64,000 bases of DNA from Halobacterium salinarum DSM 3754. Lineage in GTDB: Archaea; Halobacteriota; Halobacteria; Halobacteriales; Halobacteriaceae. The notes under the pieces are model-generated. The model did no database searches and was not told the DNA's origin. It worked only from the letters and a program-made list of their open reading frames with translations. Of this stretch, positions 49,350 to 53,505 are shown one piece after another. The stretch is taken from assembly GCF_008124605.1 (NCBI RefSeq), contig NZ_VRYN01000002.1, positions 372,001-436,000 of the forward strand, given 5' to 3'. Numbering within the stretch: position 1 is the stretch's first letter; each line of letters starts with the position of its first letter. Position numbers and translations under genes: made by a program.

Positions 49350-49401
49350 TTTTTGGTGAGCCAAAAACCGAACGTCTTTTGAATCTTTAGGTTGCCCTAA
49401 A
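49350..49401. promoter_or_regulatory. Two related palindromes upstream of the cupredoxin lipoprotein gene
   Basis: TTTTTGG-TGAG-CCAAAAA at 49350-49367 and TTTAGG-TTGC-CCTAAA at 49386-49401 share the pattern TTTNGG-N4-CCNAAA. Their centres are 35 bp apart. The second ends 4 nt before the ATG at 49406, covering the expected start site of a leaderless transcript. The pattern resembles DtxR-family metal-regulator boxes, which is an inference. Confidence 0.6.
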
Positions 49402-49405
49402 CCCT

Positions 49406-51838
49406 ATGCAGCGACGACGAGAATTCCTACAGGCAACGGGGGCAGCACTCGCCGCAGTCGGACTCGCCGGCTGCAGCGACTCGGGAGGCACGACCGACGG
49501 CGACGCGACGACGGCGGCCGACGCCGGCAGCGGTGACGACGGAGGCGACGACGTCGGCGTCGACGCCGCCGTGGCCGCCCAGTGGAACGTCTACCGTGCG
49601 CGCCTCGCGGACGCCGCCGCGCTGGGCGCACACGGCGCGTCCGACGTGGGCGCACAGCTCGCCGCCACCACGTTCGAACAGGACTTCGAGAACGCCGGCG
49701 GCGAACACGGTGCCCACGAGACCCTCGAAACGACCAGCGAGAGCGCCTACGAGGGCTTCGAGCAGGCCGCGATCGGCGTCCGGGACGCGCTCAGGGAGGG
49801 TGACAGCGCCAGTGCGATCGAGCAGGCCGAATCCGCCGCCGCGAACCTGCGGGACGCCCAACAGCGCCTCGTCGGGGAGACCGCGATGCACGCCCTGGAC
49901 GCGCTGGCGTTCGCCGACCACGCCGCGACCGCGCGCGCGCTCGCCGCCGCCGGTCAGGCCGACGCCGCCGCGGTCGCCGCCAACACCGCCCTCTCGGCGT
50001 TCGAAACCGCGCCCGCCCACGAGGCCATGGAGTCCGCAGCCACGGACGCCTACGAGTCCTTCGAGAGCGGGCTCGGGGACACCCTGTCGGCCGGACAGCG
50101 CGGCAACGCCGACGACGCGAACTCCGCCGCCGCCACTGCCGTGTCGGCGGCCGTCGACGGTGCGTACGCGATCGCCGACACCACCGGCACCGAAGCGGGC
50201 CACATCGCTAGCCTCCAGTCCCGCGCGTACGACGCCGCCGCGCTCAACGCGATGGGTGGCCCGTCGTCGGACTTCGGGCACGCCGCCGTGCTGTCGGCGT
50301 ACCGGGCGCGCGCCCAGGACGCCGCGTGGGTCGCCGACGCCGGCGCGTCGGACGCGGCCGCATCGATGGCGATCAGCGTGCTCGAAGACTTCGAAGGCGC
50401 GGCCGCCCACGAACCCCTCGAAGAGACCGACCACGACGCCTACGAGGGCTTCGAGGGCGGCGTGGAAGCGCTCCAGGAAGCGATCACCGCCGGCAGCGGC
50501 GTTTCGGATGCGCTCTCGCAGGTCGACACCAACCTGGTCGCCGGCATCAAGGCGCTGACCACGGACACCGAAGCGGTCATCCTGGAGACCGGGTTCCTCC
50601 GCGCGCTGCTCGGCGACGCCCGCGAGCAGTACCATCGCGGCAACGCCGAGCGCGCCGCCGCGAGCGTCGAAGCCATGTTCAAGCGCTTCGAGCGCGACGA
50701 GCTGGGCGCACACGAGACCCTCGAATCCACCAGCGAATCCCTCTACGAGACGTTCGAGGACGAACACGTGGGCGCGCTGCCGGCGGCGATGCGGAACGGC
50801 AACGACGATGCAGTGACGACGCACCTCGACGGCGCGCGATCCGCGCTCGCGGAGTTCGCGGCGCAGATCGCGCCGACCGCGCGGGTCGCGGGCGGCGAAT
50901 CGGTCACCATCACCGCCCGCGCGTTCGACGCCGCCGGCGTGGCGGCGCTGGACGACCGGACGCGCGCGGCGACGGTCGCCGACGACGCGATGGCCTACTT
51001 CGAGGGCGGCGCGGGCGGGTTCCACGAGGCCGTCGAAGCCAGCAACGAGGAAACCTACCACGCCTTCGAGGAGGCGCTGGTTGGCGTGTCCTCGACGGCG
51101 AGCGACGGCGGGAGCGTGTTCGACGCCGCGACCGGCTTCGGCGCGCAGTCCAGGACCGCGGTCTACGACGTGATCGGGAACGCGGGCGGCGACCTCACGG
51201 CGGCGGCGGCGGCCGTGGCTCGGGGCGCGCTCCGTGACTTCGAGGGGGCGCGCGCACACGAACCGCTGGAGGAGGCCGACCACGACGCCTACGAGGCGTT
51301 CGAGTCGTCGTTCGAGACGTACGCCAGCGGCCTGGAGTCCGGGACCGGCGACGTCTCCGTGGTGCGGCGGGCGTCCCTGCGGGCGCAGTTCGCGGTGGCG
51401 GGCGACGCCAGCGCGGCCCCGGTCGGCGACGCCGCATCCAGTGGTGAGGGCGACTCCCAGCCCGAGCTGAGCGGCGGGCCGAACGTCGTCTCCGGCGTCC
51501 CCGATGACGCCGACCACGTGATCGACATGAACGCGGTCGCGTACGATCCCGCGGAGCTCACCGTGTCCGCCGGGGACACCGTCGCGTGGACACACGCCGA
51601 CGGCGAGGCGCACTCAGTCACGGCCTACGAGGACGACATCCCTGCGGACGCAACGTACTGGGCGTCCGGCGGCTTCGACAGCCAGGACGCGGCCAAGACC
51701 GGCTGGGCGAACGGCAAGGGCGCGGTCACCGAGGGCGAATCGTACGTCCACACGTTCGAAACCACCGGCGAGCACGAGTACTACTGCATCCCCCACAAGA
51801 ACCTCGGGATGGAAGGCACGATCGTCGTCGAGGAGTGA
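49406..51838 (+). CDS. Halocyanin-like cupredoxin lipoprotein with six HExxE repeats
   Basis: The 810-residue exported lipoprotein has a Tat-type signal with lipobox (RREFLQ at residues 4-9, LAGC with Cys23) and an acidic linker to about residue 53. Six repeats follow, starting near residues 94, 199, 329, 428, 532 and 612, each containing H-E-x2-E-x6-Y-x2-F-E. The C-terminal cupredoxin domain (about 705-810) has type I copper ligands His736, Cys794, His797 and Met802. The repeat region resembles haloarchaeal DUF5059. The His/Glu repeats suggest metal binding outside the cell; the EfeO iron-uptake protein also combines a cupredoxin with a metal-binding helical domain. The promoter has two metal-box-like palindromes. 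Confidence 0.88.
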   Translation: MQRRREFLQATGAALAAVGLAGCSDSGGTTDGDATTAADAGSGDDGGDDVGVDAAVAAQWNVYRARLADAAALGAHGASDVGAQLAATTFEQDFENAGGEHGAHETLETTSESAYEGFEQAAIGVRDALREGDSASAIEQAESAAANLRDAQQRLVGETAMHALDALAFADHAATARALAAAGQADAAAVAANTALSAFETAPAHEAMESAATDAYESFESGLGDTLSAGQRGNADDANSAAATAVSAAVDGAYAIADTTGTEAGHIASLQSRAYDAAALNAMGGPSSDFGHAAVLSAYRARAQDAAWVADAGASDAAASMAISVLEDFEGAAAHEPLEETDHDAYEGFEGGVEALQEAITAGSGVSDALSQVDTNLVAGIKALTTDTEAVILETGFLRALLGDAREQYHRGNAERAAASVEAMFKRFERDELGAHETLESTSESLYETFEDEHVGALPAAMRNGNDDAVTTHLDGARSALAEFAAQIAPTARVAGGESVTITARAFDAAGVAALDDRTRAATVADDAMAYFEGGAGGFHEAVEASNEETYHAFEEALVGVSSTASDGGSVFDAATGFGAQSRTAVYDVIGNAGGDLTAAAAAVARGALRDFEGARAHEPLEEADHDAYEAFESSFETYASGLESGTGDVSVVRRASLRAQFAVAGDASAAPVGDAASSGEGDSQPELSGGPNVVSGVPDDADHVIDMNAVAYDPAELTVSAGDTVAWTHADGEAHSVTAYEDDIPADATYWASGGFDSQDAAKTGWANGKGAVTEGESYVHTFETTGEHEYYCIPHKNLGMEGTIVVEE

Positions 51839-51840
51839 CA

Positions 51841-52605
51841 ATGGTTGGAACCGACCTCGCTACCATCCGCGACCGGCTGGAAGGCCTCGCGGAGTCGGAC
51901 GGCAGATTCGTCGTTGCGTGTGCGCGGACCGGCGAGCAACCGTTCCCCGTGGCGGGGCTTCGGTTCGCCGACCGCGACACGGCAGCCGACGCGCTCTCGC
52001 TGGCGACCGCGTACCGGGAGACGCTGGCGCGATACGACCCCTGGGCCCCCCAATACGACCTGGTCGTCCACGGCGCGCCCGTGCCGTCGCCGACCGACGG
52101 CCCGGACCGCTCGGACATCTGCCACGACATCGTCGGCGCGGTGTTCGAGGCGCTGTCAGCGGCCGACCGCGACGCCGCCGAGCGCGCCGTGCTCGACGGG
52201 TATTTCGCCGCCGCGGAGGCGACCACCGACGTCGACGATCTCTCGATGGTGTTGTTGTCCTGTGCCGCCGACGCCCTGGACGAACACCTCGCGCCGGCGG
52301 CCCAGGAGGCGATCCTCAGCGACGCCGCCGACCGCGTCGACTTCGTGACCACCGACGCCACGCCGGGCGAAGCGCTTGCGACCGTCGCCGCCGCGGACCT
52401 CGCCAGCAGCATCACGTGCACCGACGGCGGGTGGCGGTTCGCCGCCGAATCCACGGGTGACCGCGGCGCAGTGACCCTTCCGGTTGCGGTTGCGCTGCTC
52501 GCCACCCACGCCGTCGACGCGCCCGCGTTCGCGCCGATCGGCGACCGCATCGACGTGCAGCCGTCCGGCGGTCCGGCGGGGCTCGCGACGGCGGCCTCAG
52601 AGTAG
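51841..52605 (+). CDS. Conserved haloarchaeal protein (DUF7551/DUF7552-like) next to the cupredoxin lipoprotein
   Basis: The 254-residue protein starts 2 nt after the lipoprotein stop, in the same transcript. The first 80 residues (GTDLATIRDRLEGLAESDGR, VACARTGEQPFPVAGLRF, AYRETLARYDPWAPQYDLVVHG) form one domain. The rest (DICHDIVGAVFEALSAADRDAAERAVLDGYF..., LSMVLLSCAADALDEHLAP) is helical, with several Cys residues. It has no signal peptide, so it is cytoplasmic. Family names are from memory. Function unknown; the tight coupling suggests it serves the lipoprotein system. Its 3' end overlaps thiR by 9 nt. Confidence 0.78.
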   Translation: MVGTDLATIRDRLEGLAESDGRFVVACARTGEQPFPVAGLRFADRDTAADALSLATAYRETLARYDPWAPQYDLVVHGAPVPSPTDGPDRSDICHDIVGAVFEALSAADRDAAERAVLDGYFAAAEATTDVDDLSMVLLSCAADALDEHLAPAAQEAILSDAADRVDFVTTDATPGEALATVAAADLASSITCTDGGWRFAAESTGDRGAVTLPVAVALLATHAVDAPAFAPIGDRIDVQPSGGPAGLATAASE

Positions 52606-53505
52606 GCCGCGGGCCATCCGCACCGCGTCCGGCGCGTTCTCCGCGAGCACGTAGACGATCGGTTCGACGCCGTAGCCACCGGTCTGATAGAGCACGTCCA
52701 CGGCGTCGGCGTCCCGGACCGCGTCCCGGATGTGGTGGTCGTCGGTCGTCGACTCTCCCTCCGGCTCGAACTCGACCACGGCGTAGCCTGCGTCCGCGAG
52801 CGCGGCGACCGTGTCCGCACTGTACGCGATGTTGAGCGCGGCGTGGGCGTCCACACCGGCGGCGCGCGCGTCCAACAACACCGTTGCGACGTACGCGCTC
52901 ACGCCGAACTCGGGCTCCGCTGGGATCTCGGTGCGTCCCATCACGTCCAGCACCCGACCCGGCACGCCGGCCACGTCCTCGACGGTGTCCGCCTCGGGCG
53001 TACACTCCACGAGGTTCGCGCCGACCGCCGGGATCTGGGTGGCGAAGCCGCTGGTGCGTTCGAGCATGCGCACCCCACGGCGCACCGACGACAACACGTG
53101 CTCGCGCACCCGCACCTCGCTGTCCGCGTCGTGAACGGTGAAATCGCCGTCGTAGTCGGCCAGCGCGGGGTTGGCGGCCTCGTGGCGCTCGGCCAGGATG
53201 TCGCTGCTCGTGGACAGCTCCCGCACGAGAACCTCGGCCTCCACGAGCGCCTGCACCTGGGAGACGTTGCCGGTTGCGAGCCCGCTGCCGGTGCGCTCGA
53301 CGAGTTCCTGGACGCGGTCGTCAGCGGCGATCTCGTCGTCGGTGGTCACGTCGCCGTGGGCGTATTTCGAGACCGCTGACTGGCTGACCCCGAGCAGTTC
53401 GGCGACCTCGTGTTGGGTGAGCCCGCGCTCCCGCAGGTCGGCCGCCAGCAGCGACCGGAACGTCGGCAGGAACTCCTCGACGACGACCTCCTCGATGAAC
53501 TTCAT
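52597..53505 (-). CDS. thiR: HTH-ThiN thiamine-responsive repressor
   Basis: The 302-residue protein joins an N-terminal HTH ([30 protein letters not shown], about residues 23-52) to a C-terminal ThiN domain ([78 protein letters not shown]). Haloarchaeal HTH-ThiN proteins repress thiamine genes when thiamine phosphate is bound (established for the family). The ATG overlaps the dcd stop by 4 nt (ATGA at 53502-53505), an unusual partner. Confidence 0.88.

Follow-up and report, generated by a model that had tools for sequence, protein, structure and literature searches.

How iron passes the outer layer of haloarchaea is poorly known, and no gene has yet been assigned to the iron uptake that was measured in Halobacterium (PMC11349517). 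The window that we analysed, a stretch of 64,000 nucleotides of the Halobacterium salinarum DSM 3754 genome, raises the question of whether a surface protein that joins repeated His/Glu motifs to a copper domain could contribute to this process. The gene (49406..51838, + strand) encodes an 810-amino-acid protein identified by its Pfam matches as the orthologue of HVO_1228/hcpE: PF16502 (DUF5059) covers it at full length (1-619/619; 933.8 bits for a cut-off of 25), and a PF00127 match of 59 bits lies downstream of it. None of the NCBIfam models attained its cut-off on this protein, the halocyanin model TIGR03102 scoring 29.7 bits versus the 93.8 required. The original prediction of a poorly described system must be tempered, in that the family has a Pfam entry and that the names hcpE (HVO_1228 of Haloferax volcanii, a model haloarchaeon) and hcpG (H. 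mediterranei) are used in the Haloferax papers; it stands in that no function is given there or elsewhere in the literature examined. In the literature found, which lies outside the earlier archaeal DtxR-regulon surveys, there is no description of how the repeats are arranged, of the five invariant sites, of the duplication that gave two blocks or of the iron-type operators presented below.

The N-terminus MQRRREFLQATGAALAAVGLAGC (49406..49474, + strand) reads as a twin-arginine (Tat-type) signal ending with the lipobox LAGC and the lipid-anchor Cys23, and its residues R4, R5, G22 and C23 are invariant among 22 homologues, in agreement with the predicted export as a lipoprotein. DUF5059 was matched in 77 of the 292 genomes of the class (76 above the cut-off; about 26% of haloarchaea), and, among 345 genomes sampled from the phylum, its matches were confined to the order of the window's own species. 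A profile built on a single repeat gave significant matches in 116 genomes, all in DUF5059 proteins apart from a few marginal single matches (E 0.002-0.009). Among plasmids, one near-full-length copy was found, in Natrinema, the other matches listed covering the cupredoxin region only. In Haloferax massiliensis (L037 / L145) a frameshift breaks the DUF5059 frame into two overlapping ORFs of about 920-930 amino acids each, with partial profile coverage.

The strongest clue to the metal concerned comes from the promoter. A scan of the upstream DNA showed a palindrome directly ahead of the start codon in every homologue. In the window, the proximal operator TTAGGTTGCCCTAA (49387..49400, + strand) ends 5 nt ahead of the start codon, and the distal DtxR/IdeR-type operator is TTTGGTGAGCCAAA (49352..49365, + strand); these are the only two matches to TTWGGNNNNCCWAA in the window, where 0.01 is expected by chance, and both stand ahead of the DUF5059 gene. 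Using the strict pattern TT[AT]GG-N4-CC[N]AA, counted over distinct homologous promoters, the TTAGG-N4-CCTAA-type operator was found in 93 of 93 promoters, starting at -17 to -24, and a second one occurs 33-37 nt further upstream in 77 of the 93, with an A/T-rich stretch between the two. The motif occupies 20 positions of the 2.36-Mb genome versus one for the reversed control, which, together with the 0.01 expectation and the 93/93 promoters, rules out a chance origin of the operators. A third copy stands about 52-55 nt further upstream in several Haloferax-type promoters (L017, L019, L022, L024, L101, L106 and L123). The IdeR half-site has the same form (PMC10317159), and the DUF5059 promoter carries the iron-regulator palindrome by which the DtxR/Idr regulon is recognised; the genome has three DtxR-type C-terminal domain matches, two of them above the cut-off.

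Outside the window, the operator occurs at 17 other places in the genome, eight of which have a clear metal link. It adjoins three genes of siderophore-type binding proteins (Peripla_BP_2), an operon with a Fec/Fhu-type permease, an SBP-permease operon, a ZIP transporter gene, a NifU gene and a diaminobutyrate aminotransferase gene (TIGR00709, 506 bits), which has two IucA/IucC genes on its contig and possesses two tandem operators 35 nt apart, as does the DUF5059 gene. At L066, L069, L071 (site 3998), L073, L077 (site 3030), L078, L079 and L080, the same palindrome has neighbours with no obvious iron link (a CLC channel, a helicase, a FilR1-like regulator, a GMC oxidoreductase and glycosyltransferases); these sites are either further regulon members or chance occurrences. 

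Published expression data point in the same direction. In H. volcanii, HVO_1228 (annotated "DUF5059 domain") is among the top ten risers following endA knock-down (log2 4.2), where genes for siderophore synthesis and Fe(III)-ABC genes rise as well (PMC7714728). In a cas1 fen1 mutant it goes down (log2 -2.92), as do iucA, the gene of an iron ABC protein and diaminobutyrate genes (PMC9051519). HVO_1228 is absent from the main text, the part searched, of the iron-starvation proteome paper (PMC11349517). From the operators and these two data sets we infer that iron control of the DUF5059 gene is nearly certain. The extracellular iron-handling role that had been suggested from the motif thereby gains independent support, because the operators are present in all promoters examined and shared with siderophore genes, and because the Haloferax gene is co-expressed with such genes. 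As the gene carries an iron-uptake operator in every relative examined, we propose that the DUF5059 protein is probably an unrecognised part of haloarchaeal iron uptake. The protein is not indispensable for siderophore uptake, however, since it is present in only about a quarter of haloarchaea and co-occurs only weakly with siderophore synthesis (31 of 76).

The gene neighbourhood proved largely uninformative as a functional clue, no neighbour being common to more than 16 of the 67 DUF5059 loci. Upstream lie coenzyme A and lipid genes, which have no relation to iron. Downstream, a DUF7552+DUF7551 gene (51841..52605, + strand) starts 2 nt past the DUF5059 stop codon and is likely co-transcribed with it; about ten other haloarchaea (L045, L046, L038, L047 and L109 among them) have a homologue of it immediately after their DUF5059 gene, and its product is a possible partner of the DUF5059 protein. 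Some DUF5059 relatives adjoin siderophore ABC transporter genes. Further on, at 52597-53505 (- strand), lies an HTH-ThiN fusion gene, which joins a DNA-binding domain to a thiamine-phosphate synthase domain and likely encodes a regulator of the thiamine pathway.

Turning to the protein itself, the C-terminal region (51518..51832, + strand) is a plastocyanin-like type I copper domain, as predicted, with PF00127 and Foldseek matches (E 2.1e-5 and TMt 0.84 against 2plt) and with ligands H736, C794, H797 and M802 invariant in 47 of 47 homologues. This canonical, fully conserved domain is what one would expect of an iron-sparing electron carrier, i.e. a halocyanin-type copper protein replacing iron proteins, in which the repeats would serve as scaffold or docking surface and their His/Glu/Tyr network would be structural. 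Halocyanins are haloarchaeal one-electron carriers (PMC8305020), and iron control is compatible with iron sparing; in this genome, however, the operator is common mainly to transport and siderophore genes. The copper domain, and the listing of the family under copper machinery (PMC9240420), might alternatively suggest a surface protein sequestering copper at its His/Glu sites. We regard this as very unlikely, given that the operators show the iron-type DtxR/IdeR half-site, that the co-regulated genes are iron genes, and that the sites are rich in Glu and Tyr and, the cupredoxin aside, lack Cys and Met, which favours hard metals.

The repeats are a robust feature of the N-terminal part. The expression HE..E.{6}Y..FE matches the protein six times, at an identical spacing, with the His at positions 104, 205, 335, 436, 540 and 618, and it did not match any of 20,000 shuffled versions of it; the copies use unlike codons, as had been noticed. 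The residues originally given for the repeats (94, 199, 329, 428, 532 and 612) mark the Phe in the conserved "FE", 6-10 residues ahead of each His, and the units of the original prediction therefore begin there. Among 47 homologues sharing 43-52% identity with the window protein, the conserved core turned out to be broader than first described, namely E-H-E-Y-E. The FE Glu, the His, the Glu at H+4, the Tyr at H+11 and the Glu at H+15 are kept in 47/47 sequences (three gaps at one position) in repeat 1 (F94-E119: E95, H104, E108, Y115, E119; 49685..49762), repeat 3 (F329-E350: E330, H335, E339, Y346, E350; 50390..50455), repeat 4 (F428-E451: E429, H436, E440, Y447, E451; 50687..50758; last Glu in 44, plus the 3 gaps), repeat 5 (F532-E555: E533, H540, E544, Y551, E555; 50999..51070) and repeat 6 (F612-E633: E613, H618, E622, Y629, E633; 51239..51304), all on the + strand, and these residues are the ligand candidates. 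At H+1, repeats 3 and 6 show a drift from Glu to Asp. Repeat 2 (F199-E220; 50000..50065, + strand) is intact in the window protein, which keeps all six motifs, but it is degenerate across the family, the position of H205 being His in 29 of 47 homologues and Tyr in 13. The family thus has five constrained sites and a decaying one: selection on the His/Glu pattern is confirmed, five repeats escape the loss of conservation that would have spoken against the motif while repeat 2 does not, and the proposed six metal sites are reduced to five candidates at the level of the family.

The AlphaFold2 model computed from the 47-sequence alignment (mean pLDDT 93.0, pTM 0.64) shows six four-helix units, followed by a disordered linker (about residues 675-686) ahead of the cupredoxin. 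According to its secondary-structure string, rather than its coordinates, the FE Glu ends helix B in all six units, the His and the Glu at +4 lie on a short helix C', and the Tyr at +11 and the Glu at +15 lie on helix C, so that each unit presents a carboxylate at a helix end and, on each of two consecutive helices, an i/i+4 pair. A domain of 600 residues that keeps the same five polar residues unchanged in five of its units exceeds the needs of a scaffold, which makes the iron-sparing carrier an unlikely interpretation. We consider it fairly likely that the role is in iron acquisition rather than iron sparing. The 50 matches listed by Foldseek for the full model are all cupredoxins; a PDB sequence profile search with the helical domain yielded a sole match, a spurious coiled-coil (E 0.003).

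The profile of repeats 1-3 aligns with that of repeats 4-6 over 258 columns (E 3.7e-42), pairing 1 with 4, 2 with 5 and 3 with 6, a single deletion lying between 5 and 6; the helical domain is thus a duplicated three-unit block. Short DUF5059 forms of about 500 amino acids, with three motifs, occur in six genomes (L031-L036) and retain the proximal operator. A repeat tree of weak resolution groups their units with repeats 1, 2 and 6; this grouping speaks against the short proteins as the ancestor of the duplication and makes it more likely that most of them lost repeats 3-5, the Halorutilus copy apart. In that copy (L034) all three motifs are intact and two operators are present.

What could these units bind? 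The Glu/His/Glu/Tyr/Glu set resembles ferric sites such as those of transferrin and FbpA, and for this reason we judge, from the sequence, that the repeats rather likely bind metal. His and Tyr, both found in each unit, are also common haem-iron ligands, and this iron-regulated surface lipoprotein, a few loci of which adjoin a siderophore ABC transporter, could instead use them to ligate haem, a siderophore or another iron complex, like a haemophore or a siderophore receptor. The carboxylate-rich sites are unusual for haem, though, and no haem-uptake family or fold was matched in the Pfam, NCBIfam, fold and PDB searches, making such a binder quite improbable.

The original prediction also implied a kinship with the HxxE (M75) domain of EfeO, and a comparison with M75/imelysin profiles revealed no similarity to the helical domain. 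First, a nine-member M75 profile made of EfeO sequences aligned with it over 17-27 columns only (hhalign E 0.17-0.23, probability <1%), and PF09375 was not reported for the window protein in a Pfam search up to E 1. Second, a model of the short three-repeat form, of modest quality (pLDDT 77), gave a best Foldseek E of 0.3 and matched no imelysin structure. Third, the motifs differ, the His of the window protein being followed by Glu at +1 and +4, in an HExxE...YxxFE spacing, versus Glu at +3 in M75, and GxHxxE being absent. Fourth, M75 was found in 0 of 145 haloarchaeal genomes, and the FTR1-type permease (EfeU) in 0 of 292, this one included. Profile comparison and genome distribution thus rule out a recognisable M75/EfeO kinship. 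A distant member diverged past easy recognition, as might be imagined from the cupredoxin, the duplicating four-helix bundles and the His-Glu motif on a short helix common to EfeO (PMC3143127) and our model, is extremely unlikely in view of these results and of the reversed domain order.

Together, these data lead us to favour, with slightly better than even confidence, a lipid-anchored protein of the cell surface that is induced by iron starvation and captures iron on the outer side of the membrane. In cells with sufficient iron, a repressor that senses the metal, presumably of the DtxR family, would occupy the operators (one or two copies of TTAGG-N4-CCTAA) over the promoter; under iron shortage, the DUF5059 gene would be derepressed along with the genes for siderophores and ferric ABC transport. 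Once exported, the protein consists of six tandem four-helix units derived from the duplicated three-unit block, in five of which (six in this species, apparently) the Glu at the end of helix B, the His-x3-Glu of helix C' and the Tyr-x3-Glu of helix C would form one site, whose carboxylate, His and phenolate groups would suit ferric iron as the putative metal. The tethered blue-copper domain may exchange electrons, either to reduce the iron for release or to oxidise it for capture, and the iron may then be handed to a membrane transporter. In this scheme, the export signal, the repeats, their invariance, the fold class, the duplication, the operators and the surrounding regulon come from the present analysis, and the co-expression with siderophore genes is taken from the cited papers. 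If the sites bind iron, the protein would be a copper-assisted iron binder with multiple sites, and no relative of its sequence was found outside the haloarchaea. More tentatively, it may represent a new, haloarchaea-confined class of extracellular iron-binding proteins, with five to six duplicated four-helix units holding one ferric ion each and blue-copper-driven capture or release, convergent with EfeO and transferrin in a group without EfeO or FTR1. A domain of unknown function becomes a specific candidate for iron acquisition, with the operator in every promoter examined.

Regarding known systems, the operators recall those of IdeR/DtxR in actinobacteria and of Idr/SirR/TroR in haloarchaea, TTAGG-N4-CCTAA corresponding to the two-repeat IdeR half-site, except that two separate half-sites stand here 33-37 nt apart around an A/T-rich stretch instead of one 19-bp box. 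The C-terminal domain resembles the halocyanins and plastocyanins (PF00127) in its H, C, H and M ligands and in its export as a lipoprotein, whereas halocyanins lack the 600-residue helical repeat domain. The PF16502 proteins hcpE/HVO_1228 of H. volcanii and "hcpG" of H. mediterranei have the same domain order, with a C-terminal cupredoxin. Finally, EfeO of the bacterial EfeUOB system is likewise exported and iron-regulated, and combines a cupredoxin, N-terminal in its case and C-terminal here, with duplicated four-helix bundles in which a short helix carries the conserved His-Glu motif (PMC3143127). EfeO has two units versus six in the window protein, for which the 292 haloarchaeal genomes offer no EfeU/FTR1 partner; by analogy, the DUF5059 protein may nevertheless work like EfeO, the likeness being one of design only.
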